Origin: Chrysophaeum taylorii
Taxonomy: Eukaryota; Sar; Pelagophyceae; Pelagomonadales; Pelagomonadaceae
Direction: 5' to 3'
DNA: 64,000 nucleotides
Assembly (NCBI GenBank): GCA_029834535.1
Contig: JAQMWT010000212.1
Location: 1-64,000, forward strand
The position numbers were made by a program, and so were the translations under genes. Under the pieces are notes generated by a model. The model did not search any database and was not told the DNA's origin. It worked only from the letters and a program-made list of their open reading frames with translations. The first letter of the stretch is position 1, and every line of letters starts with the position of its first letter. Below are positions 8,219 to 57,107 of this stretch, piece after piece.

Positions 8219-8247
8219 TAATGTCATAAACCCATTAATAACACCCC

Positions 8248-11252: not shown

Positions 11253-11296
11253 AATGTGAAATGAAATGAAATACGCAATGCGGGGATCTTTCTAAG

Positions 11297-17462: not shown

Positions 17463-17480
17463 CGCAAGGTTACCACACGT

Positions 17481-19650: not shown

Positions 19651-19659
19651 TTCACAAAT

Positions 19660-22498: not shown

Positions 22499-24170
22499 GT
22501 GCACCAAGCGATTTCACAGTCCTATTCAGTTATGTGTCATAGGAGCCATAGCCACCCATCGCCTGCTGCTCCCCGTGTTCACTTCTACGACGACGTCAAC
22601 CTTGCAGACTTTCACCTTCCTCAAGCTCTCGTTCATTTAATTTCTGAACATGCTCACGCCTTTCAAGTTCTTCCCGCTCAATATGCTTATGCTTTGTTCA
22701 CGCCCCACTCCATTTTGGATCATAATGACGCTTCTTATGGTGCTTCCGAGCCTCATCTCTCCGCCATCGAAGACTATATCACCGTGCAATCGCATTACAT
22801 TGAAGTTCACATTGGTGATGCTCCTCTACTAGTCGTTCAACTCGTCGAAGATCCCGATCACGCTCATCTGCCCGATAATGTCGCTTCTTACGCAATTACT
22901 CATCTGACGACGACTCATGACCCCAGCACGGTTGGTTCGGACGAATACAAGATTCAAGCCAAAGATATCAAAATTGATGAATATGAGTTGAACTGCCTCA
23001 AAGGTCTCTCAGACGCTGATCGCAAAGCTTATGTTGCTGCCATCTCCAAAGAGATTTTTGACATTGTTAAGTTTGGCTGCTTTAAACTAGCGCTGCCAAT
23101 GGTCAACTCAAAGCCTATTGACACCCGTCTCGTCCTACGTATAAAAAACAACGCTGCTGGTCAGTACATTAAACATAAAGCACGCCTGGTCCTACGAGGA
23201 TTCTTAGCCTCTCTGGGCACCGATTTCTTCAACACATTCAGCCCTATGGCACAGCTTACCGGCATCCGTTGTGTTTTGGCGCTAGCAGCTCATCTGCGAC
23301 TTCCCGTCTATCATGTCGACGTCCCTAACGCTTTTGTTCAAGCTCCCATCGATTCTCATGTCTATGTCAAACTGCCACAAGGCATTTGCCTTCTCGATCC
23401 CGAAGATACTAAATACCAAGGTCGCCGTCTCCCAAAGCTACTTAAATCTCTCTATGGATTGCGTCAGAGCCCTGCCCTTTGGATTCAAACCATAAACGGC
23501 TTCTTTGATTCATTAGGCTACACACGATTTCGAACAGACACATGCATTTACGCTAAAGTCCAAGCTGGCGCTACATTTCTAATTTGCACGCTCTCAGTAG
23601 ACGACGTCGTCATTACTTGTACTTCGGAAACTCTACGTCGTGAGTTCCAGCAAGCCCTGAAAAAGGAATACTCAGTCGACACCTTCGAGGAAGTCCATAC
23701 TCTCCTAGGCATGCGCATAACGCGTCCAACTGATGGCTCTATATCACTGCACTGTCAGGCTAAACTTGACGCATTGTTCGACGAGTACCCCATTTTAATG
23801 CAGTTACGTCCCACTTCCACACCGATGTCACCATCAACCACGTATAAAACTGGAGAGCCATCTTCTGATATGGACAAGTTTGTTCTTCATACCTTCTCCA
23901 CCTTACTCGGCAAGCTCGCGTTTGTCCAATTGGCCTGTCGCCCCGATCTATCCCAAAGTCTTAGTCGTTGCTCTCGAGGAATGCATAATCCAGCATTTAT
24001 ACATGTTCAAGTACTAACAGGGACGCTCCGCTACTTGCGCAAGCCCGAAAATCGTAATCTTCGCCTCTGGTACTACTCTGGTTCTTCCGCTCTAGTGGAC
24101 CATCTTCGACTTCTTATCGGTAATCGTACTGACATGGCCACCATGTTGGACTACACTAAAGAACAAGTTA
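22499..24170 (+). CDS. reverse transcriptase and start of RNase H of A3
   Basis: A long open frame. Conserved blocks are EYELNCLKGLSDADRKAY, KHKARLVLRGFLASLGTDFF, VYHVDVPNAFVQAPID, LPKLLKSLYGLRQSPALW, the catalytic SVDD at about 23594-23605, and LACRPDLSQSLSRCSRGMHNP. These are typical of Ty1/copia RT. The element sequence stops at DYTKEQVN, where A4 begins on the other strand. A few residues after that point belong to A4 sequence. Confidence 0.92.
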
Positions 24171-25528
24171 ATAAAAGAATCCTGAAGCACAGGTGAAGTG
24201 AAGGAGACAAGTGTTTGCACGAGGCGACGGGTGTCTTGGGTTTCATTATTGTGGTGGTAAGCTTGACACAACCAAAGAAGGCCGGTCACAGGATAGAGAG
24301 TAGCGGTCTTATCGATTCCTGATTCGTGCGTTTGGAAGGTATAAGTTTCACCAAATGAATTAATGTGTGCCTGGTATTTAGAGGAAGGATTGGTAACTGT
24401 GATGTCTCCACCTGTATGTCTTCCGCCTGTGATGTAGATAATGGAGGAGCTAGAGGATCTATTTAAAAATAACCTGTGAGATGGTTGGTTATATTCGATA
24501 GTTGTAATACGAAAAGACACGGGCAAGGTGGTAGAGTTTGGGAACAAACGTCCCATAAAATTATAGAGGATGACAAAGGCCTTGAGTTCAATGGGCGAAG
24601 TCATACACGTAAGGGGTTTCCTTGAATTCGTTAAGAATCCCAAGTGAAAGTTAGAAATGCCCTCCATTTCGTCTTGGGATGAGTGTTCGGTTGTTTTATA
24701 TGAATGTAACCGGAGAAACAACATAGTTAGCGTTTCTAACTCGGTAACAGTTAGGCGAACGGACCCCATGCGACTGAAGGTGCTGTAAGTTTTAGGTATG
24801 GAAACAAATGGTACGTCATAGAAGACTTGTGTCCATGGTTCATCGACAAGTAGCTTTCGACTTATAGTATTAGCGTGATCCGCAATGTCCAGGAATGAAG
24901 TAACTCTCTTATCAGGCCAAGACAGCAAGTCCAGCGGGCCGATGTTATACTTGCAGGCAACGAGGATACATCTTTCCCGTGCTTGGTAGTCTCCACACGA
25001 GTAACCGGGAAAGCGACCGCATATATCCACTGTGTAATGCATTGTAGAGAAGATCAGGTTGGCAACTCGTATATGATATTCATAGGATGCAGAGTGTGGT
25101 GGTGTCATCCCCATAAAAAGAACAAGGGGTTTTTGAAGCTCGGGTGCACTTAGAGCGCTTGGGAACAAGGAATCATCCATATCTCGCTCGAAGGTTGTTG
25201 TAGGTCCACCGTTGATTATGTTGCGATTAGTACATGGGGAAGTCAACTCCACAATATCAGAGTAGTATCGAGTGCGTTCTGCGTATGATGCGCGATGCAG
25301 ATAGGTTAAAAACCTTGGAAGGGACGGAAACACTTCAATAGAATTGCCAAACCGTCTTCGAAGCATATGCGTAAGGTTTTCATCGCTCTCAACAAGAACT
25401 TTAACGTTAATGTTGATTCGCAAGTCATTGGAGGCGCAAGCCAAGAATGCAGGAGTAGACAACCCGGAGCAAAGTAGTGTTACAGTGGGTACGCGTGAAC
25501 AAGAGTTGGATGTTATGGTATGAAGCAA
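24171..25528 (-). pseudogene. cytosine-C5 DNA methyltransferase-like domain of A4
   Basis: One long frame shows LLCSGLSTPAF (motif I-like), VLVESDE (motif II), SPCTNRN (motif IV position), MTPPH (motif VI position), CGDYQARERC (motif VIII region) and the long variable part. It ends at the inversion junction before motifs IX and X. Its frame stays open through the domain, which suggests that the domain was maintained while the element was active. Confidence 0.72.
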
Positions 25529-25546
25529 ACTTGGGTTAAACTTGCG

Positions 25547-26792: not shown

Positions 26793-27179
26793 ATCGCTAA
26801 CCGTCTTGTTGCGATGGAGGACGGCGCCTAACGCGCTTGCTCCTTGCGGCGGCCTCGGCCGTCCCGGAGTGAGACGGTGCCTGCTCGCCTCCCGGGCTGG
26901 CCGGTTAGCACCCGGAAAGTCCGCGCTGGGATGGGGTTCGCGCGGTTGAGCAGAACGCGACGGACAGGTCGATTGTTTGTGGACCAACACGTTCGCGGCC
27001 GGCGACGTCTTTGCACGACCTCGCACAAGACCGTGTGCAATGGCGGTCCGCCATCAACACTCCTCGCCCCTCGTCTCTGCCCCAACTGCGCGATTTCGCT
27101 CTGAGATCCCGCACCGGCTCCTGCCGGTCCGGCCTGGCTCCCATGCTCGGGAGAGGTCTGAAGTCAGTTAGTTAGTTAA
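26793..27179 (+). mobile_element. diverged subfamily copy of the GTTA-tailed retroposon (387 bp)
   Basis: It has flanking 10-bp duplications TTTAGAGTCG/TTTAGGGTCG (26783-26792, 27180-27189). The 5' third (GCGATGGAGGACGGCGCC) and the 3' hairpin plus tail match the other copies, but the middle is quite different and more GC-rich. It represents an older or separate subfamily. Confidence 0.85.
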
Positions 27180-29241: not shown

Positions 29242-29260
29242 CGCATCTGGGCCCATAACC
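29242..29260 (-). promoter_or_regulatory. primer-binding site of A4
   Basis: GGTTATGGGCCCAG followed by ATGCG, directly after the LTR, complementary to the initiator tRNA-Met anticodon arm. Confidence 0.8.
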
Positions 29261-31269: not shown

Positions 31270-31464
31270 TAGATAACAGTAATCACAACTGTGTTACCCT
31301 TCAGCAGAGCGCGAGAACAGTGGTAGTCTGTCCTCGAATCTGTCTCTTAATCGAGGACAGCCGGTGTGAATAACACAGCGTTTTCTTAAATCAAAGGTGG
31401 CAAAGTTAAGTGAACTAACCCTAGAATAGGGGGTACTAACCCTAGTTCGGATTTTCTATCTCTA
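31270..31464 (-). repeat. 3' LTR of C (195 bp)
   Basis: It starts TAGAGATAG in element orientation and ends in a TCTA-type terminus, so the ends are TA...TA rather than TG...CA. It aligns with 57457-57642 plus 58703-58712, and more distantly with the C2 LTR at 61494. Confidence 0.8.
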
Positions 31465-31506: not shown

Positions 31507-32886
31507 CTAAGCGGGAAGCGCCTTACCGTCGACAAGAATGTAGAGAGTGTTCTGGACAGAGTCGTACGGTGGAAGAGTAGCCGAAAGAGCAACTTGATGT
31601 GATGGTGGGGAGGATGAAGTGGAGTGAACGCCGTAGGCGTTCTTGAACTTGTGAAACAAGTTGCGTTGAAGGAGCTTCGGAAAATGATCAGCGACCTGGT
31701 AGAGAGTAGGACACCAGAGAGGTCTAATGATCGAATTAGCTTGGTAGTCACGAATGCGAAATTCCCGTAAGTTGATATGACGAGAAGGAGCACTGACTTT
31801 AGGATGATTAGCGACATGTAGTGCGCTAGCGTTGTCAATAAGCAATGGGATAGCGTGAGCTTGATCACACGAAAACAGATAGGGGTGGGACGAGAAGAGC
31901 TTGTAGAACCAGTGACATTCATCAGCGGCTGCGCTGGCGGCGATGAGTTCAGCTTCCATGGTGCTCTTGGCAGTGAGAGTCTGGCGTTTGCTAGACCAAA
32001 ATACGAGACTGCCAAAGACGAATATACATGCACCAGAGTTGGATCGTAAGCGAGGGTCAGAACGATCAGCAAAGCTTGCATCAGTAAAACAGATAATAGG
32101 TGAACGAAGATGATGCAGTTCAGGATAGTGAGCGATCAGATGCTGAATAAAGGGGGTGATAGGCGGGCTGTTGGATGAACAGTCAAGGGAGTCATTCGGA
32201 GTGCCCTTTAAATAGCGAAGTAAAACATATAAGTGCAGAAGGTGTGTTTGGTCGGGGTTGTGCATCCCTTTGCAGCATTTGTTGCACAAGGTGGTGATGT
32301 CCGGCCGACATGTGACAGACAAATAAATGCTGGTGCCACAATAGAAAGGGAAGTTTTGGCGTAATACATATAAGGTAGTAGCCAAGTCTGAGAGAAGTTT
32401 AGTAGAAGGTTTTTGGACGAGGATGTCCGAATAGGGGACGTCTAGGCTATGTAGGTTGAGCTTATGCTCAGCAAGCATCTTGTTGATCTTCGCTGCTACA
32501 TTCATAGTGAGATGACCAGCGGAGACATTATAGTGGAAATCGATGCCAAGAAAGGATCTGATGTTGTCATGCCATGTACCCTTGCCATATTCGGTCTCCA
32601 GAGCGGTGCGAAGAGACGCAATTTTAGCAGTGTTGTTACCAGTGATCAATAGGTCATCGACTGAAACGGATAGTAATACCCATTGGTTGATATATCGATC
32701 CCAATTAATATAGAGACAAGAATCGACTTGTGAGCGTTCGAACTCATGGTGTCGAAGAAACGAGTCGAGCTTAATATTCCACAACAAAGCTGACTGTTTG
32801 AAGCCATAGAGAGCCTTGACGAGTCGGAGAGCGAGCTGCGACTCTGGATGGTTCTTCTGTATCTGCTGGATATGATTTGGCGAGAC
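31507..32886 (-). CDS. RT C-terminal part and RNase H of C (426 residues)
   Basis: It shows LVKALYGFKQSALLW, SQVDSCLYI, the catalytic SVDDLLITG (about 32653-32661), IRSFLGIDFHYN, and VTCRPDITTLCNKCCKGMHNP. RNase H follows with CFTDASFADRSDPRLRSNSGACIF, WSSKRQTLTAKSTMEAELIAASAAADEC and LLIDNASALHVANHP. These are classic Ty1/copia signatures, and the frame is open to the end of RNase H (VADHFPKLL). The right edge is D's insertion site. Confidence 0.92.
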   Translation of the reverse strand, partial: VSPNHIQQIQKNHPESQLALRLVKALYGFKQSALLWNIKLDSFLRHHEFERSQVDSCLYINWDRYINQWVLLSVSVDDLLITGNNTAKIASLRTALETEYGKGTWHDNIRSFLGIDFHYNVSAGHLTMNVAAKINKMLAEHKLNLHSLDVPYSDILVQKPSTKLLSDLATTLYVLRQNFPFYCGTSIYLSVTCRPDITTLCNKCCKGMHNPDQTHLLHLYVLLRYLKGTPNDSLDCSSNSPPITPFIQHLIAHYPELHHLRSPIICFTDASFADRSDPRLRSNSGACIFVFGSLVFWSSKRQTLTAKSTMEAELIAASAAADECHWFYKLFSSHPYLFSCDQAHAIPLLIDNASALHVANHPKVSAPSRHINLREFRIRDYQANSIIRPLWCPTLYQVADHFPKLLQRNLFHKFKNAYGVHSTSSSPPSHQVALSATLPPYDSVQNTLYILVDGKALPA

Positions 32887-33201
32887 TGCAGAGAAATCTG
32901 CTGCCTCTTACCCTTATCCATCCGTTGAGAACGTGATCTCTTCCTTACCCACCTTCTTCCTTTATACACAATCGAATAGTCCTCTGATTTGTGCCTACGC
33001 TCATCATCCTGGTCTAGCGCGCCCCGAGGTATGTAGCACTATACACTTTACCTTTCTCGTGCAGTTCTAGATGCCGCCTGTCGTGTTCTGGGGATATAGG
33101 GAACATACCTTTTCATTCCCCGAATTAAATACTTCCAGACGTTCATGATGAGACGGGATGGTTTCCCAGGTGACTTACCACTGCTTGCAAAATGCTCTGC
33201 A
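32887..33201 (+). repeat. 5' LTR of D (315 bp)
   Basis: TG...CA termini with 7-bp inverted ends. The first 15 bases (TGCAGA-GAAA-TCTGC) can fold into a GAAA-capped hairpin. About 95.6% identical to the 3' LTR by hand count. Confidence 0.93.
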
Positions 33202-33220
33202 GGTTATGGGCCCAGGCGTG
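33202..33220 (+). promoter_or_regulatory. primer-binding site of D (initiator tRNA-Met anticodon arm)
   Basis: GGTTATGGGCCCAG begins at the base after the LTR, followed by GCGTG. Its complement CTGGGCCCATAACC matches the anticodon arm of eukaryotic initiator tRNA-Met. Confidence 0.82.
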
Positions 33221-33721: not shown

Positions 33722-35152
33722 ATGGCAGAACACGCAGCACGAGCCGCACCCAAGGCGATCACAGGTGCGGATATATTGAAGCTCGAAGCTCCTGTAGTTG
33801 AGTTTCTTAACGATGGAAATCGATTTCAGCTTCAGACTCGCAAGGTATCCTTGCAAATCAAGCACATTAAGCAATTGTTACGGTCCAGTCATGCCGATGC
33901 CTTCCTCGAGTACGACTCGTACGAAGCATATACTCGGTCATGCAAGGACTACGAGATCCTCCGGAATCAAATTCTCGATCGCGTTTTCCTGGAATGGAAG
34001 ACCGATAGGGCTGCTGATCTCCGTTTCGCTGTTGATGAATTGCCCCCTGAGTATCAGGAATGGCATTTCACCAACGAAGCTTTCCCCCACTTACCTGATG
34101 CAGAAGTAGCTCAGCTAGCTACTGTCTGTTACGACTATGAAGTCAAGGCATTACGTCCTGAAAGCAATGCCCGTTTCTTAGAAGAGGAACGAATATTAAA
34201 TCGCGCGCACCCGAAGGCATTAGCTTTCGACACCCGTGTTCGTGCCCCTGTTACTATGTTTTCGTTAACTGCTGCTGACTGGCACACTTATCAGAACACG
34301 TATGCTACATTCTTGCATACTTACTTCAATCTTGAAAGTGTTGGAAAACCAGCACTTGCGGCCTGGCCCGCCATCAATGAGGTATATAACAAAAGTTATT
34401 TACCCAACAAGGCTCGAGCCATTATGCTCATCGCCTTTAGTCACTACGAGTCTGTTACGACTACTGATGTGTCCTATTTGAAACAGCAATTTAACTCTGT
34501 TGTTTATAATCCTAACTGGTATGTCCATGTATTTATCGAAGCTGTCCTGGCATTTAGGCAAATCTCTTACCAACTTAACCAGGAAGAGACTGACCTTCAA
34601 TTCGACTTTGGCACTCTTTGTAGAAAAAATATATGAAGAGATACATCGGCATTATGCCGATAATACCAGCAACAATCGTTACGATCGTGGTTGGGTAGAT
34701 TGGTGTTATATGTATGAAACCCGATCTTCATCTCGGCCTGTGCCAGAAGCTGAACGATTGTGTCACCCTACCAACCCTAGCTACATTTTAGAATACGCAT
34801 TAGACCTGTACAATGTAGTATCAAATGGGTCGAACAAAAGACGCTTAGAACGCCCCGTTTCTTGGCAACCCTATGTCGAAGGTTTATCATCTCAACCAAA
34901 GCCAAAGTTACTACTTACAAACATTCTGGATCTAGCAGACAAAAGTCTGACTCAAACTGCTAACACACTCGCCTTCATCACTTCGTCTCAACCTGGTACA
35001 TCTTCCACGTTCAATGCTAGACGCTTGCGTAACTCTAATGATGCTCGCCAGCCTTTCTCTCGCAGCGATTTATCGTATTATCGTTCTGGTGATTCTTACG
35101 TCACCAAGAAAACTGCTGGACAGTCCCATGACCGTCCAATTTAACCCCGCAC
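33722..35152 (+). pseudogene. Gag of D
   Basis: It starts MAEHAARAAPKAITGADILK. It shares with family A the blocks YDSYEAYTRS, NLESVGKPALAAWPAINE, PNKARAIMLIAFSHYES and NWYVHVFIEAVLAFRQ, then LERPVSWQPYVEGL and FNARRLRNSNDARQPFSRSDLSYYR. This establishes A and D as sister families. Structural capsid role by position. No CCHC knuckle seen. The frame is broken at a couple of points. Confidence 0.78.
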
Positions 35153-35248
35153 TTTTGACAGGTCCTCTCGGTCTAACATGAAATATTAGAACGAACAAAT
35201 CACACCTTAAACACCCTGCGAGAACAGTGTAGTGAACTTACAAAGCAT

Positions 35249-36496
35249 GTGACAGATAATGATACCACGGCTCAGCTACAACAGAATATCAACAAGTTAT
35301 TTGAGACTCTATTACAATCAGCTGACATTCTGTCAACGACATCTACTGAGGACAACAGTAGTTTACTTCGTCTAAACGAACAGCTCATGTTTGCAGAAGA
35401 CATCATTTGTGATGTAGACGTTCATCTATCCTCGACCGAAAAGTCGTTAAACTACGTGGAGCCACAACACCATACTGTTGTTACTGCTCCCACCCCAAAG
35501 GCAACTCCTCCTACTACAAACACACAGGGTTATCCTTCCAATACCGTGCCTAACCTCTTTGCCGCTTCCGCCATCTCGGCTTTACTACCAGCGTTATTGT
35601 CCTCGCTATCTTCACAGGTCCAATCTGCCCTCAACCTACCATCACAAGCCGAAACCAAAAGGGAAGCCGATCATACTTCGCTATCGTCATTTGATGAAAA
35701 GCACGGCATGGCTGATGAGGCTGACGAACCATCACCACCTGTTCAACCGATTATTATTCCAACGAATCTACTATTGCTGGAGAACTTCTTCACAGCCAGT
35801 CTCTCCACCACGTGCACACATTCAGAAAACGCCTTCCTCGCCAACTACATGAAGGTAAACAGTGTCCCTCCACATTGTTCTTTTCTATATTTTGACTCTT
35901 GTGCTACCATCTCATTGATGTCCACTTACGATTTTGCAATACCCAATCACATTATTCCACTGGACTCCAAATATGCGCCGATTGTTATTCAAACGGCCAC
36001 AGGACAGCAACGTGCCTCACAAATGATGTTAGCACGTAACATTGTTGTTCCCCTACCAGATCATCCACAAGTTGGCTATGTTAAGATCGACTTCGCTTTA
36101 TGTCTTCAGCCAGTGCATGACCGACATCTCGCTATCCTGAGCATGCTCGAGTGGAACCAGACGAACCTGACCACTGTGTTCAATGATCGAGCTGAGCCAA
36201 AGCTCAGCGCTGTCGCGAGCCGCATAGACAAAGATGTACGTACACCCATACATTATGTAGCAGCTAATTTACCCGCTCTCCCTTGTCTCACTTACAACAT
36301 CGCGCGCGACAAGCGGCTGGAACTTCGCTCTCTCGCATTTCCCCTCAAGCGATACCATGAAAACAGGGATCTACTGGCATACTACAACTACCTACTCCAA
36401 AGAGTTTTACCAGATCGCCCGTGGATTCGCCCTTTGGTTCTCAATCTTCGGAAACAGAACAAGTTTGTTCAGCAAAACACGCAGCCATTAACCTGA
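35249..36496 (+). CDS. Gag tail and aspartic protease of D (415 residues)
   Basis: The first 130 residues are an acidic, helical and then proline/threonine-rich linker (LLRLNEQLMFAEDII...). The protease follows with LYFDSCATISL at the active site, IQTATGQQRASQMMLARNIVVPLPDHPQVGYVKIDFAL, and a conserved tail ending VLNLRKQNKFVQQ. The D-S-C-A form parallels D-T-C-A in family A. It is followed closely by the methyltransferase frame. Confidence 0.78.
   Translation: MTDNDTTAQLQQNINKLFETLLQSADILSTTSTEDNSSLLRLNEQLMFAEDIICDVDVHLSSTEKSLNYVEPQHHTVVTAPTPKATPPTTNTQGYPSNTVPNLFAASAISALLPALLSSLSSQVQSALNLPSQAETKREADHTSLSSFDEKHGMADEADEPSPPVQPIIIPTNLLLLENFFTASLSTTCTHSENAFLANYMKVNSVPPHCSFLYFDSCATISLMSTYDFAIPNHIIPLDSKYAPIVIQTATGQQRASQMMLARNIVVPLPDHPQVGYVKIDFALCLQPVHDRHLAILSMLEWNQTNLTTVFNDRAEPKLSAVASRIDKDVRTPIHYVAANLPALPCLTYNIARDKRLELRSLAFPLKRYHENRDLLAYYNYLLQRVLPDRPWIRPLVLNLRKQNKFVQQNTQPLT
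35434..35454 (+). repeat. 21-bp inter-domain motif, copy 1 of 5 in D
   Basis: The motif GACCGAAACGTCGTTAAACT plus a final A occurs, with at most three mismatches, at 35434-35454, 38413-38433, 40578-40598, 42861-42881 and 48602-48622, always on the plus strand and always between domains of D. In four places it is read in the same frame, as T(E/A)xSLNY. The 42861 copy lies after the RNase H stop. Not noticed in families A or C. Confidence 0.75.
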
Positions 36497-36511
36497 CTAC
36501 TCTCACGCCCA

Positions 36512-38300
36512 GTGTTTCTCTCACAAGAGTCCAATCTCCGCAAACCCTCTGTCATGTTACTTTGTTCTGGTTTGTCAACTCCGGCGTTCCTGTCTCAAGC
36601 CACTAATGACTTAGGCTTAAATATCAATGTAAAAGTTGTTGTTGAGTCTGATGATACGCTTGTTCGTATGTTACGCCACCGTTTCCCTACTGTATTATTA
36701 TTTGAATCTCTCCCCGCCTTTATTAACCATCTTCACCTAATCTCACCAGAGGAAAGGCGCACATTCTATTGTGATATAATTGAGATCACTCCCCCCTGCA
36801 CGAACAGGAATTTACTAAAACAGCATAAGACAGAAGACTTACACAGCCTGCTGGACGATTCTCTTTTCGACAGCATGTTGTCTGTCATCAAGTTACTCCA
36901 GCCCTTGGTACTACTGGCTGAGATGACGCCTCCACATAAGTACTGTCATCAAGACCACATCACAGTGGCCAATCTTATCCATGCAACACTTGATTACTGT
37001 GTCGATGTTGTTGATAGGTTCCCGACCTACCTCTGTGGCGACTACCAATCTAGAGAAAGATGGATATGCATCGCACGCAGGTATTCTACTGGACCAATTA
37101 AAATATTGTCGTGGCCTATCCTCCATCCACGCCCCTTCCTAAAGATCGTGGATGATCTACAAGCTATTCCCAAGCGCCTTTGGCTACCTAAACACGTATC
37201 CAAAGACTGGATCCGGGTGTTCCCCGATCCTCCATATATCCCCGTTCCTAAAACGTTTGCACCTTATTCTCGCACAGGTTCTGTTCAGCTTACTATGGCT
37301 GACCTTGAATCCCTCAATATGTTACTGCTTCGCCTTCACTCACAACAGGCTCACGAGCAACGTACTCACTCTGTTCAATCCGAGTGTACTTATCATCAGC
37401 TGTGCTTTAAACGCTCCTCTATGGAGCCGCTACCCAATGCAACCTACCCTATACACGTCCAGGCTTTTACAATACTCTATAACTTGTTTGCCAGCTTGCA
37501 CACTAACTCACCCACTCCTGTGTCTTATTACATAACCGTTTTCGAAACTAACCAACCGTCACACAGGTTACTACTTACAACCTCATCAACATCATACAAC
37601 CCCCACTTCTTAACTGGTGGCCACCACTCTGACGGCAACCTCACCATAGAGAACGCCACCACCAAATATCATGCTTCTATTGACGCGCTTGGAAGCACGT
37701 ATACGTTCACTGCTTCCGACATTCCCCGCGACCGCGACAGGTCCATATATTTGGAGTTTGTGGGTTACTTGTGGATAGTCCAAGCCCTTCCCCAAGTTGG
37801 CTCCGCTGCCACCTATGGCACCGCCATACAAAAGCTCTTGTCCATGTGCTCTCTTGTGATGCCTGGCTGCCTTACCTACAAGGCCACCGACAACTCTTTC
37901 GACTACAAGGATTCTCATTTTGCTCTGGAAGATCACCACTTATCTCATAGTCGCTATATAGGGTACCTTCGTGGAAGTGACCGCAAACTCGGCTCTAAAA
38001 TCCACTCCATGCATGCTCCATTGCCCACCGTCCGAGGGTACGCCAATATTATTTTACTTGACCCCCGCAACGGGAAATTACGCTACCCCACTCGACCGGA
38101 GTTGATTCGTGCTAACAACCACACCAAACAACAGGAATCTTTCCTCTTGTCTCTACGCCATGGCCTTTGCTGTGGCATGCTCAGCAATGCTCTGCCTGCC
38201 GGTACGTACAGTACTCTGTACAATCACCTCTCGCTCCTCGTTGCCGATATTAAATCCCTTATGTTGGACCCTACCTTCCAACATACTGCTGCCGTGACGA
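36512..38300 (+). CDS. cytosine-C5 DNA methyltransferase-like domain of D
   Basis: First part of a 790-residue open frame (36512-38884). Motif order: LLCSGLSTPAF at residues 16-26 (motif I-like), VVVESDD at 42-48 (II), TPPCTNRN at 93-100 with Cys96 (IV), AEMTPPH at 136-142 (VI position), CGDYQSRERW at 175-184 (VIII, QxRxR). A long variable region follows, then RYPTRPELIRANN near 526 (IX) and SNALPAGTYSTLYNHL near 558 (X). C5 methyltransferases have this arrangement, with the target-recognition domain between VIII and IX. The long uninterrupted frame argues for selection while the element was active. Likely captured long ago, since IV and VI are diverged. Catalysis is unproven. Confidence 0.75.
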
Positions 38301-38670
38301 AGAAATCCTATGTATCCAATTTCATGACCGTTGATCAAGCTTCCACCACGTGCAGCACAGATACCTTGTCTTTGGCACAAGCTTTTATGATGTCTATTTC
38401 CAGCAACTGCTTGACCGAAATGTCGTTAAACTATATATCTTCGTCCTACGAAGATACTCTCGTTACTCGTGATGATGAGGATGCACCTCCAAGTGACCCT
38501 GCTGCGCACCAGGATGACGACGCACCGCCTTCCCCTGCCTTAGACACCGAACTCAAGTTCGATGTTCGGCGCAAACGGCATATTCCCGCTCATCCCATTC
38601 CTCGTAAGTCCTCGCACACGGATCCACCGAATATCTCAATGCCAAAGAACGTGCCAATCGCTTCCACCGG

Positions 38671-41653
38671 GTGCATCACTGCCCCGACAACGTCGCTGCC
38701 AAGGCCCCCAACGTACTTGCTCGCCCTGGATTCTCTGCTTCTGACATACCATATCGCGACTTATGCACCGACTGCATCGCACACAACAAGCGCCACCCGC
38801 ACAAGCATTTCAATGCGACCAAGCCTTCTTTTGAGCAAACTCACAAAGCCGGCGAAGTCTGGGCGTGCGACGGCGGCTATGTGACCATCCCATCCGAATG
38901 GGGAGGCTTCACACATATCATCGTCTTCAAGGAACTCATTTCGAAATTTCTCTTGGTGTACTTTACACGCACCACCAACGCCACGGAGTTCACTCAAGCT
39001 CTGGATTTTGTGTATGACTTCTGTCGTACACAACTCAACGTGCACATGCGCACCCTCTACTCCGATGCCTTCAAGCCCTACTTTAGCCAGCACATTACCT
39101 CCCCGTACCGCGTCGATAAGGGCATTCAACTCATCGCCTTCCCGCCGTACATGCACCACTTTAACTTTGAAGTTGAGTCCGCCATCGGTTTCATCGCCTC
39201 CGCCTCCTCAACTCGCCTTCGTTCTCTCCTTGATCCTCACTATCGTGGCGCCAAGATCGTGGAACCAGCCATCATGTTTCCGTGGGCGGTGATACACACC
39301 GTTCAAAGCAACAACCTTCTCCCGAACGCCACGCTCGAGCGCATTCATTATGCTATCCTGAGTCCGCAACAGCTACTCTACAACCAACTCAACACTCCCC
39401 AACATGATATGCTCAAGATTTTTGGCGCTGAATGTTACCTTCTATTGGAGCCCCATGAACACCATAAGTGGGGACCGTGCCGCCGCAAATATTTATATCT
39501 CTGTTGCGCCAACGCGCAAAACCCGCTCGTCTCCCCACGCGTCGACCATCTCGCTGACGTCGTCCTCAACCCTGAAAACGGACAAATTCGTGTTTCGTCC
39601 AAGCTGCAATTCCTCTACATGTTGCAGCATCCTACTCCTGATCTTGAACTAGCTCCTCCGCCACACGCTCCTTCCGCGCCTTTCTCGCTCACACCCCACA
39701 CCACTATGCAAGATCATGTCATTCAGAGGGGGACAAGGACTTCTCATCCTCAGAGGGGGCACTCCCCACCTCCTTCAGCTCCTCCTTCTTCGTCCCCTAC
39801 TCCGGCCTCTTCTCCATCTTCTAACGCTACCGCCGACGAATCTGGCTCTATGTCACCGCCACCCTTGCTTCCTTCTTACAAAGACCTTTTTGCACAAGAT
39901 GACCTCATTCTTGTCCCGGGTTCTAAACAGCCCAACACCCACAAGGCCACTTATATGAAATCTATTCAAGCCCGGTTGCAAGCGTCTACTATTGGTGCTT
40001 ACAAAGCCGCTGGTGGCAAACTCGCCGATTTCCGCTGGGATCTTCGCCACCACTTTCTTGCGTTCGAGTCTCCCGCCCTCTCCGCCCTTCATCTCAGTGG
40101 CGGTATCCTCTGGTCTGCTATCTGCTCAGAGGGGGAACATGCGTTGTTAGCTCGTCTTCTTCTCCCGTTGCGCACTGACTTACTTGCCCGCTACCCGCAC
40201 GTCGATGGTTACTTCGCCCACGCCAAGTGCGCATCCAGCATCCCAGCTGCAACCTTTTTAACTGCTGATGGTTCACCTGCGTGCCCCATTCCTCAGCCCC
40301 TTTTATCTGCGTTCACTGAACACGCTGCTGCCTTTGGCACTTCTTCCTTACAATATGCACTTACGTACCTGGCGCCGACCAGCTTTATTGATCACAACTC
40401 CGAGTTCGGCGCTACTTCTGCATCTCTGGCTGACTTGGAGGAATACCTTCTGGTCTCTACAGAGTTTATCACCCAGGTCTTACACACCGACCCTACTATC
40501 CATATTCAACTGGAATCTGCTTCTCCTACTCCTACTGACGCTGTTTCCGCTTATCCCGAAGTTGCGCACACTGCCTCGACCGCAACGTCGCTAAACTATA
40601 ATTCACCAGCCATTGTTGGTCCTGACGAATATAAGGTCCAAGAAGCTGACGTTTCCATTGACGAATATAAACTTAAGTGCCTCCACGGTTTGTCGCCCGA
40701 AAACGGGCACGCCTACCTCAAGGCCATCGCCAAGGAACTCCACGACATTATCCGCTTTGGCTGCTTCAAACTTTCCTTACCCGACGGTGTCTCTCGTCCT
40801 ATTGACAGCAAGATGGTGCTGAAGATTAAAACAGACTCTGCAGGCAAATACGTTAAGCACAAGGCTCGCCTCGTACTACGTGGCTTCCTAGCATCTCTTG
40901 GCGCCGATTTCTTTGGTACCTTCAGCCCCATGGCCACCATGACCGCAATCCGGGTACTACTAGCTATTGCAGCATACAAGCAATTGCCTGTCTACCATGC
41001 CGACGTCCCGAACGCCTTCGTTCAGTCTGACATTGATGCCAACGTCTATGTTCAGTTACCAGACGGCATCAAGCTTATCGACCCCGATGACGCTAAGTAC
41101 AAGGGCCGACGTCTACCGAAAGTGCTGAAGTCACTTTATGGACTTAGGCAATCACCATCCCTTTGGAACAAAGAGATAGACGGCTTCTTCCGTAGCCTTG
41201 GTTACAAACGCCTGCATTCGGACTCTTGCCTATATGCTCGAGTATCCGCACATGCTAAGTTCGTCGTATGCAGTCTGTCTGTAGACGACATTGTTATTGT
41301 GTCCAACGACGACCCTCTTCGTACTGAATTACAGGATGCCCTCCACAAACGGTATGCTGTAGAGCAGTTTGAACCTGTCCATACCCTCCTATGCATGCGT
41401 GTGTGTCGCACATCTGACGGTTCCATTTCACTGGATGTGCAAGCCAAGCTGGATGAACTCTTCGCTGACCACCCAGTCATGCAGCAACTGACCCCGCTCA
41501 AATATCCTAGGTCATCGTCCTTCAAGTATAAAGATGGCACTCCCAGCACTGAAACAGAGTTGTACGTCATTTCGCACTTTGCCACCCTCCTTGGCAAGCT
41601 GGTGTTCATGCAAGTTGCCTGCAGACCTGACTTCTCGCAAGCCTTGGGCAGAT
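38671..41653 (+). CDS. integrase and reverse transcriptase of D (up to 1004 residues open)
   Basis: Integrase: CTDC at residues 32-35 (zinc-binding), WACDGGY with Asp67, YSDAF with Asp132, FNFEVESAIGF with the catalytic glutamate at 167 or 169. Then LADVVLNPENGQIRVSSK and a proline/serine-rich linker. RT: KHKARLVLRGFLASLGADFF, VYHADVPNAFVQSDID, LPKVLKSLYGLRQSPSLW, catalytic SVDDIVIV (codons at about 41278-41295), and VACRPDFSQALGR, where the SINE-like repeat interrupts. Upstream, the preceding frame holds the histidines of the integrase zinc region. A complete copia pol core. Confidence 0.93.
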
Positions 41654-42018
41654 ACCCTTACCCTGATCGCCGACTGCGGTTGTGATGGAGGACGGTGCCT
41701 CATGAATCCTGAGCCTTGCGAGGGCATCCGCCCTCGCGGCGTAGGTTGGCACCTATTCGCCTCCCGGGTGGGCCGGTTGGCAGCCGGAACGTTCGCAGTG
41801 GGACGGGGTATGGCCGGGGGGCGAAGACGGAAGGTTATCGACGAGTTGGTTGTCAGTCACAACGCGGTCTCCTCGTCGCATGGCGACAAGCTTGATGGTC
41901 ACTCTCCGCCGACCGAGCTTTCGGCGCTCCTCGTCTACAGGCCCGTGATTCCGGACTGGCTCCTGTCGGTCCGGCCTGGCTCCCATGCTCGGGAGAGGTC
42001 TGAAGTTAGTTAGTTAGT
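41654..42018 (+). mobile_element. GTTA-tailed SINE-like retroposon (365 bp)
   Basis: Perfect 10-bp duplications TTGGGCAGAT (41644-41653, 42019-42028). It starts ACCCTTACCCTGATCGCC and ends with the hairpin and GTTAGTTAGT. It sits at the RT/RNase H border of D, so it is younger than D. Confidence 0.93.
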
Positions 42019-42843
42019 TTGGGCAGATGTTCGCGTGGTATGCATACACCCACGTATGTTCACGTCCAAATGCTAGAGTATTTGCTTCGCTACCTCAAGA
42101 AGCCGGAAAACCGCTCACTTCGCCTCTGGTTCCATCCTAAAGGTAATGCCATTGAAGCTCACCTTCGCACTGTTTCCGCTAATCGAATTGATCTATCCAC
42201 TGTGGTCGACTACCAACCGCAGGATGTATCTACTGGACAGTTTGATCCCTTAGTTGCCATGGTTGACGCTGACAACGCCCCTTCCTTAGCACAGGAAGAT
42301 AGGAAATCTACCACCGGGTTTGTCTTCTATCTTTTCAACTGCCTTATTGGTTGGAAAAGCAAACTTCAACCGATTGTCTCCTGCTCAACTCACGAAGCTG
42401 AGTTGATTGCCCTCAGTATTTGTGCTGATGAAGCTGTTTGGCTACGCAAGCTGCTGTTGGAACTCTCCTTTGTCGTCAACCCCACCTTCTACGTCAACAA
42501 TACTATTGGTGAGAACACCGCTGATCCTGTCGACTTCGATGACAATGACAACCCAATAGCTGAAGATGTGCGCTTCATCAGAAGCCTACCTCACTTGTCT
42601 GACAATGCTGCCGCTGTTCGCACCTCTAATAACCCAGATGGGCCCTCTCGATCCAAGGCACTGTCGACTAGATGGTTTAAGATTCGTAAGTACATATCGC
42701 TTCATAAAATACGAGTCCATCATGTTCCCGGCAAGCTGAACGTGGCGGATGGTTTTACAAAGCCACTTGCTGCTGAGTTCACCACCTTTCGCTCTCTACT
42801 CGGTATGCATCATGCCTCTGACGACAGTCCTTTACAGGATTGA
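42019..42843 (+). CDS. RNase H of D
   Basis: It continues the polyprotein after the SINE-like insertion: GRCSRGMHTPTYVHVQMLEYLLRYLKKPENRSLRLWF, then VAMVDADNAPSLAQEDRKSTTGFVFYLFNCLIGWKSK, SCSTHEAELIALSICADEAVW, HLSDNAAAVRTSNNP and HVPGKLNVADGFTKPL. These hold the acidic RNase H residues. It stops at 42841-42843, 82 bases before the MULE. Confidence 0.92.
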   Translation: MGRCSRGMHTPTYVHVQMLEYLLRYLKKPENRSLRLWFHPKGNAIEAHLRTVSANRIDLSTVVDYQPQDVSTGQFDPLVAMVDADNAPSLAQEDRKSTTGFVFYLFNCLIGWKSKLQPIVSCSTHEAELIALSICADEAVWLRKLLLELSFVVNPTFYVNNTIGENTADPVDFDDNDNPIAEDVRFIRSLPHLSDNAAAVRTSNNPDGPSRSKALSTRWFKIRKYISLHKIRVHHVPGKLNVADGFTKPLAAEFTTFRSLLGMHHASDDSPLQD

Positions 42844-43032: not shown

Positions 43033-43823
43033 TTATCGTCCGCCATTCTTCGGCAAGAGGCAGACGCCAAAAGACAAAGGTAAATGGTCGGGGTGACACG
43101 GATCACCCCATTCTGGATCCCAAAATCCGAGAGGGAGAGCGTCTTTGCGAATCGATTCAGGGTCGAGAGCGCGCATCAGAGGTTCTAAGGAGGGTGCCTC
43201 TTGATAGTGTTGTGGAGGTTGTCGTTGGCGGTCTTGTCGAGGCAACCACACGGCTATGTCGAAGTGCCCCCCGGGCGTTAATGAACCATGGATTTGAAGT
43301 CGACGCGGGAGCTTTGAAATAAACAAGTCATCTGTGAGCCTTGTTGAACGAGCGGAGAACATGGCGCACTGGGTCCTTTTCTTGGAGCGAGGCTTTCCGG
43401 CCGGTGGAGCACGCGTAGGCCGTCCTGATTGATTGGATTTCTGCACGAAGCCTGTTGTTTCCGTGTCGAGTGCGTTGGGTGTACATGCCCGATAGGACCG
43501 TGGGGTCACACGAACTCGCTGCTACAAACATTCTTGGACACTCCCATAAAAACACACATCATTGAACTCGGCTTCAAATATCGCACCGAATCGTTCTCGA
43601 AAGGTAAGAAGTACCCCATACTCAGCTCGGCAAGGATTCCCTTGTCTTCGTCGTTCGCATCATATCGCTCCGTATCGTCCCCGTTGTCGTACGTGACGGC
43701 GAACTTGTTTCTGGCGTAGGTGACTGTTCCAGGAACGTAGTGTTTAGGCTGCGCAGCGGGATATGGGACATCCGAAGCCATCACCCGGACTGATTTGACA
43801 CTCCTTCCGCGCGCCGTAAGCAT
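43033..43823 (-). pseudogene. C-terminal region of the MULE protein
   Basis: Two minus-strand frames (43506-43823 and 43033-43509). The first contains ARNKFAVTYDNGDDTERYDANDEDKG, which resembles a Tudor/Agenet-like fold (Y-x-V-x-Y-D-x-G-D). The second is proline-rich and not recognised. They follow the PEST-like repeat of the SWIM frame and may be its continuation after an intron or a frame change. The function in the transposase is unknown. Confidence 0.45.
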
Positions 43824-44749
43824 ATTGAGGGTGGTGGTGAGCTCGGCGCGCGCACGGTCCCACGCTTCTTTGTCTGTTGGCCACCAGGGAGGAAACGAGC
43901 TTGTAGACGACTCTTTCTGCTGCTTGTTTGGGGGCTCGGTCGACGCGGGAGGCTCGGCTCGGTAGACGCGGGAGGCTCGGTAGACGCGGGAGGCTCGGTA
44001 TACGCGGGAGACGCGGGAGGCTCGGTATACGCGGGAGACGCGGGAGGCTCGGTAGGCTCGGTAGACGCGGGAGGCTCGGTAGACGCGGGAGGCTCGGTAG
44101 GCTCGGGAGGCTCGGTTGCTTTGCGGCCTCCTTTCCTCCGCTTTTTACTGGCGACCCGGGCTGCAGTTCCTTCTGGGTCCAACCCGGCGAACGTCTTGGC
44201 CATTTCTTTTCGTGCTCGCTTCCGGTCCTTCTTTGACCCCGACCCCGTATTCTTCCGCAGCGAGGATTCTTGGCGTTGGTCGGTCTTTGGCCTGCCTGTC
44301 CGTCGGGGCCCGATCGCGGATGGCAGCCAAGGCTCAAACTCCTCACCAGCTTCTTTCCATTCGGCTTCAATTTCTCCTTGCGCCGATTCAATTTCCGTTG
44401 CGTTGAGAATCGGAAACACCCCCCCGACCAGATATTGATTTTCCCAACACTGCGTCGTGGTCCAAAGTGGATAGAGATCCTCAGCATGCTCACCGCGAGC
44501 TATCTGAGCTCCAATCATGCAAACGCACGGCAAGCGAGAGAACGCGTAGTTGCCACAGCTACAGGAAAGTACGTCGAGTTGCTCCGAATCTTCAAAATTC
44601 ACGTATCCCTTCTGCCCGATAACAACGACGGACGTAAGTTGCTGATTGTTGTCACCTTTGACATACACCAAGAACGTCCCCTTATTGGCCCCAGCGCCGC
44701 CGCCGTAAGGCTGAACTCTTGTTATCCGGGTCTTGCTTTTGGGCATCAT
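43781..44749 (-). CDS. MULE transposase C-terminal part with SWIM zinc finger (322 residues)
   Basis: It contains FEDSEQLDVLSCSCGNYAFSRLPCVCMIGAQ, a SWIM-type zinc finger (CxC...CxC/H) of MuDR/FAR1 transposases, followed by YPLWTTTQCWENQY, the usual tail. Then come a basic nuclear-localisation-like stretch (KKDRKRARKE, KKRRKGGRK) and a long PPASTEP-type repeat. The last finger position is cysteine where histidine is usual. Confidence 0.75.
   Translation of the reverse strand: MMPKSKTRITRVQPYGGGAGANKGTFLVYVKGDNNQQLTSVVVIGQKGYVNFEDSEQLDVLSCSCGNYAFSRLPCVCMIGAQIARGEHAEDLYPLWTTTQCWENQYLVGGVFPILNATEIESAQGEIEAEWKEAGEEFEPWLPSAIGPRRTGRPKTDQRQESSLRKNTGSGSKKDRKRARKEMAKTFAGLDPEGTAARVASKKRRKGGRKATEPPEPTEPPASTEPPASTEPTEPPASPAYTEPPASPAYTEPPASTEPPASTEPSLPRRPSPQTSSRKSRLQARFLPGGQQTKKRGTVRAPSSPPPSICLRRAEGVSNQSG
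43930..44120. repeat. minisatellite in MULE coding region
   Basis: Repeated units of GGAGGCTCGGTAGACGCG with variants (TATACGCG, short GGAGGCTCGGTA). On the minus strand they encode PPASTEP/PPASPAYTE repeats. It probably varies in length between copies. Confidence 0.85.
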
Positions 44750-44972
44750 TATTGTAGTTGGGCCTACGGTTCACGCTTAGATATCACATAGAACAACCCG
44801 ACAAGTGTGAACATAACAACGGGAGTTTGATCTGAAAAGACAAAGGCCCGTAGGCCCGTAAGTATTTGAGATGGTTGAGACCCTTGAGATTATTGGCCGA
44901 AAACACGCCATTCTGATCGAAGACAAGACGAAACTAATGACGCAACAATTTGCATCCGAACACGAGGAACAC

Positions 44973-48236: not shown

Positions 48237-48326
48237 CTTGCTCATTTAGTCCTATCGGTACCCGATGCAGCCACAGACTCCACCACTCAACTGCCATTCG
48301 CACTGGATCTTCGGCTTATTACTCCG

Positions 48327-49364
48327 ATGCACCTTGAGCATCTTAACTTTCTTGTAACTCTTGTTCGAACACAGGCTCGTAAAGCCCAGGCTATGTTCAA
48401 GCCCTCCAAATACCACCGTGTGATTAATACTGTTGCCCAATCGTGGGCACAACATCTTGACGACTACGTATCATCCTCAGATGATACAAAGCCGCCATCA
48501 CTCCTGGATGTGATCTTCGGCCACATTTATACTCCGGCAGAATATCAAGACTTTCTGCACTTTCCAAACGCGAAATACCCCCTACTTGCACAACATGTGT
48601 TGACCGAAACGTCGTTAAACTACTCACTCTCCACATCAGAACCTACTCTGGAAATATCTTCGCCATCGACACACCCTGCTCCTTCTGCCTCGCCTGATGA
48701 TGTCGATGCCTTGCGTCAACAAGTCGAGCAACTCCAGGAAACTCTTCGCCTACATACTCGCAAGGTCAACACCCTCAGCGCTGAGAATCTATCTCTGCGC
48801 ACAGATCTGCAGGCTGCCATTGCTTCAATTACCTCCCTGGAGAACCGGCTCTTTCCTCCTACAGCCAATGCACACGTGTTGCTCCTAACTCTGTACAAGA
48901 TCACAGAGGTGCTGTATCGCTTAACTCTTACAGCTCATGACCAATATGCCGCCAACCATTCCTCCCCGGACGATCACCTCCATCATGTGCGTGATAAGTT
49001 GCTCTCGTGTATTCAAAGCATTCCCTTCACATGTGAATCAGAAGACCCTTCTATCTTCTCGGATCCGTTCGATGAGTCCAACTTCTTGGAAAACCATCTG
49101 GACACCCTACAACTTGACTCGCTAGTGCCATCCATACTGAATGCTTTACTTGCACTCACGTTTCGTATGGTACCACACCATTCTGCTATTGGTGTTCACC
49201 ACCTGACAGCAGAAGCTGACGAAGACGATACCGATACTCTCGAACCAGTAACGATGCCCACCACCTCAGATAGCCTTAACACACTGTCTGTCGTACCTGT
49301 GTTTCGTAATGCTCTGTTCGAAAGCGTCAAGTCGACTCTCAGCACCACCAAGTCCAAGTCCTAA
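48327..49364 (+). CDS. accessory 3' gene of D, coiled-coil part (345 residues)
   Basis: It corresponds to the second half of the family A 3' gene: LEHLNFLVTLVRTQARKAQ (A: LEILVAAWSLLQSVEDK), IYTPAEYQDFLHFPNAKYP, then a coiled coil DDVDALRQQVEQLQETLRL...SAENLSLRTDLQAAIASI. No membrane segment is predicted by eye. Function is unknown. Conservation of architecture between diverged families suggests the protein mattered for the elements. Confidence 0.75.
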   Translation: MHLEHLNFLVTLVRTQARKAQAMFKPSKYHRVINTVAQSWAQHLDDYVSSSDDTKPPSLLDVIFGHIYTPAEYQDFLHFPNAKYPLLAQHVLTETSLNYSLSTSEPTLEISSPSTHPAPSASPDDVDALRQQVEQLQETLRLHTRKVNTLSAENLSLRTDLQAAIASITSLENRLFPPTANAHVLLLTLYKITEVLYRLTLTAHDQYAANHSSPDDHLHHVRDKLLSCIQSIPFTCESEDPSIFSDPFDESNFLENHLDTLQLDSLVPSILNALLALTFRMVPHHSAIGVHHLTAEADEDDTDTLEPVTMPTTSDSLNTLSVVPVFRNALFESVKSTLSTTKSKS

Positions 49365-49517: not shown

Positions 49518-49832
49518 TGCAGAGAAATCTGCTGCCTCTTACCCTTATCCGTCCGTTGAGAGCGTGATCTCTTCCTTACCCTTCTTCTTCCTTTCTACAC
49601 AATCAAATAGTCCTCTGATTTGTGCCTACGCTCATCATCATGGTCTAGCGCGTCCCGAGGTATGTAGCACTGTACACTTTACCTTTCTCGTGTAGTTCTA
49701 GATGCCGCCTGTCGTGTTCTGAGTATATAGGGAACATACCTTTTCATTCCCCGAATTAAATACTTCCAGACGTTCATGATGAGACGGGATGGTTTCCCAG
49801 GTGACTTACCACTGCCTGCAAAGTGCTCTGCA
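49518..49832 (+). repeat. 3' LTR of D (315 bp)
   Basis: Same length as the 5' LTR. Followed by GAGAC, the target duplication, and then element C on the minus strand. Confidence 0.93.
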
Positions 49833-50622
49833 GAGACACGTATTCCTCGAGGAAGTCGATCCATACGGGGCGATCGAGTGCCGATCGGATTAGTGCATGA
49901 GGAATGTCCGCGTGCGCGACCGGGACCTTGTGCTTCACAGCGATGGCGAGCAGTAGCCGGTTGGTAGCGAGCATTGCGGTTGGTGAGGATGTGGCATAAA
50001 AGTCAATGCCTGCACGTGCCAAGAAACCTCGGGCGACTAGACGAGCTTCGTAGCGGTCTGGAGTGCCGTCAGCAAAATACTTGATCTTCAGTACGAGTTT
50101 CGTCGAGATGACGAACGGTCTGGTGGTAAAGGATCAAGCTTGAAGACACCATTGGAGCACAATCCTTCAATTTCCTTGCGAATCGAGGCTGTGCTTTAAC
50201 TTGTCTTCTTCGCTGAGTCCTTTGAGTTCGACAATCTTTTCAGGCTCATAGACAATATCTTCAGCGGTCACAAGTTGTATTTCAGGCTCATAGACAATAT
50301 TTTCAGCGGTCACAAGTTGTAAAACGACATGATCGATGTGCTGCAAATCATAGTCCATGACTTCTTGTATAATGTCTTGATTCGGACCACTTTGACTTAG
50401 GAAGAGGTGTCCGAGTTCGCCAGAATCATGCATGAAGGCATGCCTGTGACGAGAAGCTAGATGGTAGTGTTGATGTGCGGAGATGTCCCACAAAAGAGAG
50501 GAACCCATACAACAGAATTCTTGATTCCATTCACGCGCATAGTACTCTGTCGGTGACATTTCGTCATGGCACATGTAGTTCTCGATAACAGAACTGTCGT
50601 TATCAAGGTGGTCAACCAACAC
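49833..50622 (-). pseudogene. RT N-terminal part of C
   Basis: It includes ARAGIDFYATSSPTAMLATNRLLLAIAVKHK, VPVAHADIPHALIRSALDRPVWIDF (first catalytic aspartate block) and, upstream, IVELKGLSEEDKLKHS. It is the same gene as 31507-32886, split by D. A tandem duplication of a short stretch encoding QLVTAEDIVYEPE is visible near 50240-50320. Confidence 0.85.
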
Positions 50623-50631
50623 AGACGAGTG

Positions 50632-52250
50632 TTATGGCTTCCTGGGAAAGTCAACGTACAAGAGTTCCGCGTCGGTTTCTCTCTGCAAATCCAGTGCGGT
50701 GCCGCCCATGATACCATAGTCTTGTGTGGTACGTGCTAGGAGACATCCTTTCGGGACATCATTAGGCGGCTTAGCATCTCTTCGAATGTTGAGAGCAGAG
50801 GCGATGCTGGCGGCGTGGCCCTGGTGCAGAGCGCTGACACTGATGAGGAACATCAATGTGCTGGACATGTCGGCTGTGGCGTGAGCCGTGGATTGCTCCT
50901 GCTGGTATTTCCAGTTGCGACCATACTCTGAGGCGATAGTGCGTCTGGTGAAGAGTTTTCCATCGTCAACACGTTTCACGATGTAGAGTTGATCCTTAGG
51001 GATGCGGAATCCACGTTCGTCATTGAGATCTGCTTTGAGCTTATCGCTCTGGTTACGATGCTCGAGAACTGGAGTAAGACCTGAATCAACGAGAACAACC
51101 TCTAGGCGATCTTTTCGTTTGGGCATCGGAATGCTACCATTCGGCGGAGGTGGCCGGTTGAGGAACGAAAAATCCTGTTCAGGTGTCGCGTCGCTGACGG
51201 GACTTGAATCAGTAGCGGGAGTTGGATCCTGTTCTTTGTGTTCGTCGTCATCGCTAGGTTTATCATCGTGCTCGTCTTCGTGAGTCTCGCCCTCATTTTT
51301 TGATTCCTGTCTAATTTCCGGCATTTGCTGTTCGCTTATAGCTGGTAGCGGGTCCTCTTGTATCCGTTCGATCTCCTTGTTTCGGTTGGCTGGCATGTCC
51401 GCGTCGACATGAAAGTCGTTTGAGGTGACGATTTTCCCATGTCGCCCTTGATGTACAAGCAGGATAGAGCTGTGAACATCACGGATAAATCGGTCCGTTC
51501 CGGGGAGGTTCGGGGGATAGTTGTTACTATGAAAGTAAGAGGCAGAGACGCTGGAGGGTTCCAGTTTGTGACTTTGAGGGTAGACAAAAGTGACAGGTTC
51601 GCCAAAGGGGAGAAGCTTCAAGAGCGGTGCCGTGGGTGACATGATACGCCGGGGAACGGTGCATGGCATGTGCGTGCGCGAGGGCAGGCCATGAGAGCGC
51701 GGGTTGTCGGCTTGGATCTTATGCAGGAGAGCAAATGGGTGATAATACTCAGCGGCAATAGACTTTCCTTCGATGCGTACACTGCGAAGGTCGAGGAGAC
51801 GAACCACGGTGCCTCGGGTGTTTTCTTTGATAATGTTTTCAGCAAAGTTCCGCTGGTGGAGGTGGCGACCAAGGATTTGGAATTGGAGACCAAGCTGCAC
51901 CTTGAGAGGGTGGAAGGCTTCAGAGCGAAAAGTCGAGAATGCGTCAGAGGATATAATCTTGACATGGACATCGAATTCGACTTTGATCACGTTGACCACA
52001 TAGAGGATGCCGGCCAGAACATCTTGTGCGTCTAATTTCCGTAGGAAATAAACCCATTTGTGTGCTGAGATGGTACACACGAAGTGCATGATATAGCGAA
52101 ATCCGCCGTAGCACTTGCGGATGCTCGGGTATGACACATCCATGTGGAGGTGTTGGCCAGGAGCATAGGCCAGTTCATCCTGTGACCAGGAAGTGTTTTT
52201 GTGACTGAAGCTTACATGCGATTGGCACCGCTTGCATTCACTGCAGTCTA
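50632..52250 (-). CDS. integrase and linker of C (503 residues open)
   Basis: Just ahead of the open frame is DCSECKRCQSH (zinc-binding cysteines). The core has MDVSYPSIRKCYGGFRYIMHF (first Asp), KIISSDAFSTFRS (second Asp) and LHQRNFAENIIKENTRG (glutamate block). A long acidic linker follows (EHDDKPSDDDEHKEQ), then VVLVDSGLTPVLEHR and IPKDQLYIVKRVDDGKLF. Typical copia integrase with an extended C-terminal region before RT. Confidence 0.88.
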
Positions 52251-56253: not shown

Positions 56254-56288
56254 GCTTAGGGGTACTTGAATCGGAGAATTTGGTGAAT

Positions 56289-57050: not shown

Positions 57051-57107
57051 GGACTTGAGAACGGCACTTGGTGGGTCACTAAAGGTCTTGATCTTAGACT
57101 TGGGATC

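Follow-up and report, generated by a model that had tools for sequence, protein, structure and literature searches.

A divergent homologue of the C5 cytosine methyltransferases almost certainly stands as the first Pol domain in a group of Ty1/copia retrotransposons of the pelagophyte Chrysophaeum taylorii. The window, by which we mean the whole stretch of DNA analysed, is 64 kb long (positions 1 to 64,000 of contig JAQMWT010000212.1) and comes from an assembly of 70.8 Mb in 697 contigs; open reading frames (ORFs) of copia elements are spread over much of it. The element in which the domain was noticed is called D here, and the same domain is found at the same place, in the interval between protease and integrase, in copia families C and E of the window. 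The order in D is Gag, protease, methyltransferase-like domain, integrase, RVT_2 reverse transcriptase, and RNase H-like region (Table 1). D is a Ty1/copia element by its RVT_2 match (2.7e-40, residues 703-921) downstream of integrase, and by long terminal repeats (LTRs) with TG...CA ends, 95.6% identical to each other and flanked by the short target duplication GAGAC at 32882-32886 and 49833-49837. Upstream of RVT_2 there are matches to SH3_retrovirus (6.8e-4) and rve (0.0035), both below cut-off; a Pfam search of the Gag and protease region gives no protease match, and DSCAT at 35894-35908 was taken by eye as the protease motif.

Homology, selection, and descent of the domain

The identification is carried by a chain of sequence matches, by profiles, and by the predicted fold. 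The D domain alone matches the methyltransferase family PHROG_116 only weakly (E = 0.025), and it shares 41-42% identity with a marine-eukaryote transcript that itself matches a PHROG methyltransferase at 3e-8. Against the methylase profile PF00145, which has a cut-off of 22 bits, the family E copy of the window scores 26.8 bits, the outside relative P0002 scores 23.0, and P0001 falls below the cut-off with 20.2. Foldseek, given a low-confidence model of D, finds C5 methyltransferase entries in all 50 of the listed rows; the top row and 5 of the first 7 are DNMT2-type entries, and the matches to D do not separate DNMT types.

The genome has 62 rows matching D, from which 20 copies were fetched and examined for all of the counts out of 20 given here. 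The motif IV cysteine (codon 36797-36799) is present in all 20, L017 having PSC with SC in place of PC, and PC is also at this position in families C and E and in P0001-P0003. The motif VI glutamate (codon 36920-36922) is likewise in 20 of 20. Motif VIII has QxRxR in 19 copies and a stop in L016; family E has ISKxRY instead. Motif I is related but altered, being CSGLS in D, with its glycine kept in 19 of 20 (L023 loses a Gly) and a stop within it in L019, and AGGLH in E.

Several results weigh against the identification. D has no match of its own in Pfam, NCBIfam, or PDB sequences, its motif I differs from the FxGxG norm, and its motif VI reads AEM and not ENV (ENV is found in the window copy of E, and MGM in one family C copy). 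The structure model of D is poor, with a mean predicted local distance difference test (pLDDT) score of 40.9, and a two-row structure model has a mean of 28.9. The hhalign comparison of D with E has a probability of 2.7% and E = 0.017, though it is in register from motif I to motif VIII. Protein searches with D alone and with E alone found nothing. Searches of PDB gave 0 rows for the E sequence alone, one row for the E profile, namely a cytosine methyltransferase at a non-significant E = 0.85, and two unrelated rows each for the D profile and for the combined profile, the best of the latter at E = 0.083. Five profiles run by hmmsearch against host DNMTs scored no better than shuffles. The genome contains two host-like PF00145 ORFs, L001 1498-2577 (E = 3.8e-17) and L002 1006-3537 (E = 2.8e-15), with a GC content of 0.61-0.63 versus 0.48 for the window; they look like host genes, and our reading is that L001 is DNMT2-like and L002 DNMT5-like.

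A separate question is whether the domain has been under selection. Among changes common to at least 2 D copies, 176 are synonymous and 79 non-synonymous (omega 0.137), and among changes seen once the figures are 98 and 191 (omega 0.594), a difference for which Fisher p = 1.9e-16 is only a guide, because omega is a simple count and the copies are related by descent. For shared changes, omega is 0.082 in motifs I-VIII and 0.203 in the later region. Integrase has 0.100 for shared and 0.995 for single changes, and the protease ORF has 0.257 and 0.854. The domain is thus constrained about as tightly as integrase during multiplication of the element and decays afterwards, and the low omega of shared changes means that it was under selection while the element transposed. 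The genome has 55 PF00145 rows besides the two host-like genes, and the seven that were read (six loci and the window copy) are all family E; among these seven, omega is 0.09-0.16 in 19 of 21 pairs, with 0.29 and 0.33 for the two youngest pairs. We have very little doubt that the domain has a selected function of some kind.

These results bear out the initial annotation in its main proposal, a C5 methyltransferase-like domain between protease and integrase of D, and in the catalytic cysteine of motif IV and the QxRxR of motif VIII that it read there. It had suggested a PF00145 comparison, which was divided in that D itself is without a match but family E and P0002 are above the cut-off, as well as structure prediction and a survey of other D copies, both of which came out in its favor. 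It would have been abandoned had neither profile nor structure led to C5 methylases, or had other D copies lacked the domain; the homology, the presence of the domain in other copies, and the purifying selection dispose of both objections.

The D domain is 42-55% identical to that of family C and 20-25% to that of family E, and for reverse transcriptase, D has 49-70% identity over stretches to C and 30-46% to E. Because the two proteins diverge in parallel and the domain is in the same place, a single capture is favored, probably one that predates the separation of families D, C, and E.

Expression and possible function

The protease ORF of D ends at a UGA, after which the methyltransferase frame continues in phase. 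The one D copy without this UGA, L012, has lost it to a gap, and a UGA stands at the matching place in all three family C copies; the distance from UGA to motif I is 18 codons in D and 21 in C. The next base in D is C in 14 of 19 copies and A in 5, the context being UGA CUA in 12 and UGA AUG in 3; family C has UGA CGC. UGA CUA is a context that favors readthrough. In the family E copy L006, protease and methyltransferase are in a single frame without a stop. The pattern in D and C suggests readthrough, with Gag-protease (Gag-PR) made first, then the UGA, then methyltransferase, integrase, reverse transcriptase, and RNase H (MT-IN-RT-RH). It is rather doubtful that readthrough is absent and that translation of the methyltransferase-Pol frame begins instead by re-initiation or at an internal site. 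Re-initiation is possible in three D copies because an AUG directly follows the UGA there, which counts against readthrough, and the window copy of D has an in-frame AUG within motif I; but the UGA CUA context of most copies, the phase held across the UGA in both D and C, and the lack, in each of the three family C copies, of any in-frame AUG from UGA to motif I all argue for readthrough.

What we propose is that the C5 cytosine methyltransferase which this copia group carries at the head of Pol would act on the element's own DNA. Ribosomes on D and C would make Gag-PR, and a minority would pass the conserved UGA and extend the product to Gag-PR-MT-IN-RT-RH. The enzyme would be packaged along with reverse transcriptase and integrase, be released by protease cleavage, and, in the particle or pre-integration complex, methylate cytosines of the new cDNA or of the RNA:DNA hybrid. 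Incoming DNA would then be shielded from, or pre-marked for, host handling of unmethylated or foreign DNA. We give methylation of the element's own cDNA a probability of roughly 0.5. It is preferred because a domain beside integrase and reverse transcriptase would place the enzyme in the particle; action on chromatin, also raised by the initial annotation, may be considered as well. An argument from particle location of the same kind is made for SymbioDIRS by de Mendoza et al. 2018 (PMC5890265).

The decay of integrated copies is a difficulty for the proposal. Over 36512-38300, singleton transitions per site in D copies are 0.062 at CG, 0.062 at CHG, 0.099 at CHH, and 0.098 at A/T, so that there is no excess at CG; an earlier count over a wider, less well aligned stretch found transitions no commoner than transversions and, again, no CG excess. 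The composition is mixed, with CpG observed/expected at 0.93 in the D body, 0.79 in the domain, and 0.98 in the window, and TpG observed/expected at 1.28, 1.36, and 1.09, respectively, and may be explained by codon usage. Taken together, the two results speak against lasting CG methylation of the copies, and they leave room for transient marking of cDNA, another sequence context, or RNA.

An enzyme acting on RNA rather than DNA, that is, on the packaged genomic RNA or the tRNA primer so as to alter stability, priming, or packaging, would fit these integrated copies without CG decay, and we regard it as improbable but deserving of attention. The DNMT2-type entries at the head of the Foldseek rows point that way, DNMT2 and EhMeth being tRNA-methylating types, and so does a probable primer site that appears tRNA-like. 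RNA methylation is also raised for the enzymes of long interspersed nuclear elements (LINEs) by de Mendoza et al. (PMC5890265). It is quite unlikely, in our estimation, that the domain is by now a non-enzymatic module binding nucleic acid or chromatin, for example to aim integration or to hold the intasome. Its place adjoining integrase and the divergence of motifs I and VI in D and C would suit such a module, but the motif IV cysteine and motif VI glutamate kept in every D copy examined, the strongest constraint falling on motifs I-VIII, and the PC kept in family E and P0001-P0003 oppose it. A functionless relic or a chance likeness could appeal to the stops inside the domain in some D copies and to D alone having no Pfam match or relevant PDB sequence match, but it is contradicted by the sequence chain, the fold search, and the purifying selection, and its probability is close to nil. 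Methylation of cDNA in the particle can also be set in a wider scheme, which we offer tentatively as something short of an even chance: the copia group, which has relatives among sequence sets from other eukaryotes, would have captured an orphan C5 methyltransferase a single time and kept it leading Pol, with its dose set by readthrough of the conserved UGA, to modify the element's own cDNA, genomic RNA, or tRNA primer in the particle, a modification without which transposition would not proceed.

Copia elements of the window

Table 1. Coordinates of element D, of the methyltransferase-like domains in families C and E, and of the inserted repeat
Feature	Position in window	Strand	Remarks
5' LTR of D	32887-33201	+	TGCAGAG...CTCTGCA ends
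Probable primer-binding site of D, GGTTATGGGCCC	33202-33213	+	immediately 3' of the 5' LTR
Gag and protease region of D	33722-36493	+	ORFs 33722-34636 and 35249-36496
In-frame UGA at protease/methyltransferase boundary of D	36494-36496	+	kept in 19/20 D copies
C5 methyltransferase-like domain of D, first Pol domain	36497-38300	+	~590 residues
Integrase, RVT_2 reverse transcriptase, and RNase H-like region of D	38608-42843	+	interrupted at 41655-42019
3' LTR of D	49518-49832	+	GAGGGGG directly upstream
Methyltransferase-like domain, family C, in pieces	1113-3002	-	after in-frame UGA 3005-3003
Methyltransferase-like domain, family C	17463-20250	+	after in-frame UGA 17460-17462; split by a 361-bp repeat at 17938-18298; runs into integrase-like sequence
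Methyltransferase-like domain, family C	24095-25546	-	after in-frame UGA 25549-25547
Methyltransferase domain, family E	52692-54284	-	TLPCQHLS, IVENVPP, ALANAVPHHM; PF00145 26.8 bits
SINE-like repeat copies	41655-42019; 15052-15415; 17938-18299; 7934-8220; fragment 27105-27178		

The initial annotation called D a structurally whole element, which is right for the ends, with their LTRs and target duplications, but not for the coding part, which is broken. Pol of the window copy is interrupted by a 365-bp repeat resembling a short interspersed nuclear element (SINE) and flanked by TGGGCAGAT, and its frame is broken between the methyltransferase-like domain and integrase, at ~38.6 kb, across which the frame of L018, L021, and L025 continues. 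The length across 38560-38720 is in the window's state in 5 of 20 D copies (the window copy included), in another state in 11, and otherwise in 4, and the window's frame is kept to its end in 13 of the 62 genome matches. The two common frame states at this junction may represent either shared decay or a programmed event. Domain copies without stops are present elsewhere in the genome. An active lineage as the carrier, also claimed at the outset, is upheld by selection on the domain, but the broken coding region of the window copy lends it no support. The D copies C10:195254-197350 and C297:195918-198014 are on different contigs with equal score, frame length, and stop pattern, and are possibly duplicated or unmerged haplotype sequence.

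The SINE-like repeat is ~365 bp long with TTAG units at its end; its four window copies are 97-98% alike and lie within copia elements, one of them (~361 bp) interrupting the plus-strand family C domain. An Rfam search of the window gave 0 matches. The pattern GGTTATGGGCCC, which we take to resemble the complement of the initiator-tRNA anticodon arm, occurs 4 times in the window versus 0.37 expected; the three further exact sites, 6215-6226 (-), 13821-13832 (+), and 29249-29260 (-), are presumably primer sites of further copia elements. Upstream of the 3' LTR of D, ORF 43784-44770 (-), with a weak SWIM zinc-finger match of 15.2 bits against a cut-off of 19.6, and a tract of 9-bp repeats at 43933-44151 are probably part of an insertion like a Mutator-like element (MULE). 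An extra ORF with weak coiled-coil matches, 48237-49361 (+), lies between the RNase H region and the 3' LTR, and a larger ORF at a similar place in a family C copy, 11270-13183 (+), aligns weakly with it (E = 0.065).

Minus-strand ORFs flank D, 50133-49777 on one side and 32907-31510 on the other, matching successive parts of the reverse transcriptase of D. The simplest reading is that D inserted into the reverse transcriptase of a family E element (31510-32907 and 49777-57107, minus strand), and so one methyltransferase-carrying element is apparently nested within another. Possible LTR pieces of E are at 31270-31461 and 57457-57648, 93.75% identical.

Comparison with known systems

Hosts commonly use cytosine methylation to fight transposons, which makes transposons carrying a methyltransferase a paradox. 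In PMC5890265, LINE, DIRS, and Gypsy elements with methyltransferases are described, and Symbiodinium Copia elements are said to lack DNMT; the copia carriers add a further superfamily to that list and are a novel form of something already known. One sentence within PMC12344493 places DNMT3 members in 'LTR Copia and DIRS' elements, but it cites the 2018 paper, which describes a Gypsy element, and the section examined of PMC12344493 itself describes no copia methyltransferase element. The titles and abstracts of the literature searched contained no copia methyltransferase element, which is weak evidence of absence with subscription papers and preprints mostly outside.

The present addition consists of three copia families that share the position of the domain and show selection on it in both cases measured (D and E); with dozens of copies in a small genome, they offer a system for testing what such an enzyme is for. 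From the conserved UGA, the dose of enzyme appears to matter, and the whole suggests that elements may chemically mark nucleic acid during their own copying. The closest likeness is to KnitGypsy-Dnmt3 of Klebsormidium nitens, described in PMC5890265, also an LTR element whose Pol includes a C5 methyltransferase kept by purifying selection, but of Gypsy type, with a DNMT3-type enzyme, and from a host lineage unrelated as far as known; the structure matches of the domain here do not single out the DNMT3 type, and the domain occupies the protease-integrase interval of copia elements. SymbioDIRS-Dnmt3 and SymbioLINE-Dnmt of Symbiodinium, from the same source, are likewise retrotransposon-borne C5 methyltransferases in many copies and under selection, and the SymbioDIRS enzymes methylate CG in yeast, but their carriers are DIRS elements, with a tyrosine recombinase, and LINEs, not copia. 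With ordinary Ty1/copia elements, D shares LTRs, a 5-bp target duplication, the order PR-IN-RT-RH, and RVT_2, and differs by ~590 extra residues between protease and integrase, ahead of which families D and C both have the conserved in-frame UGA.
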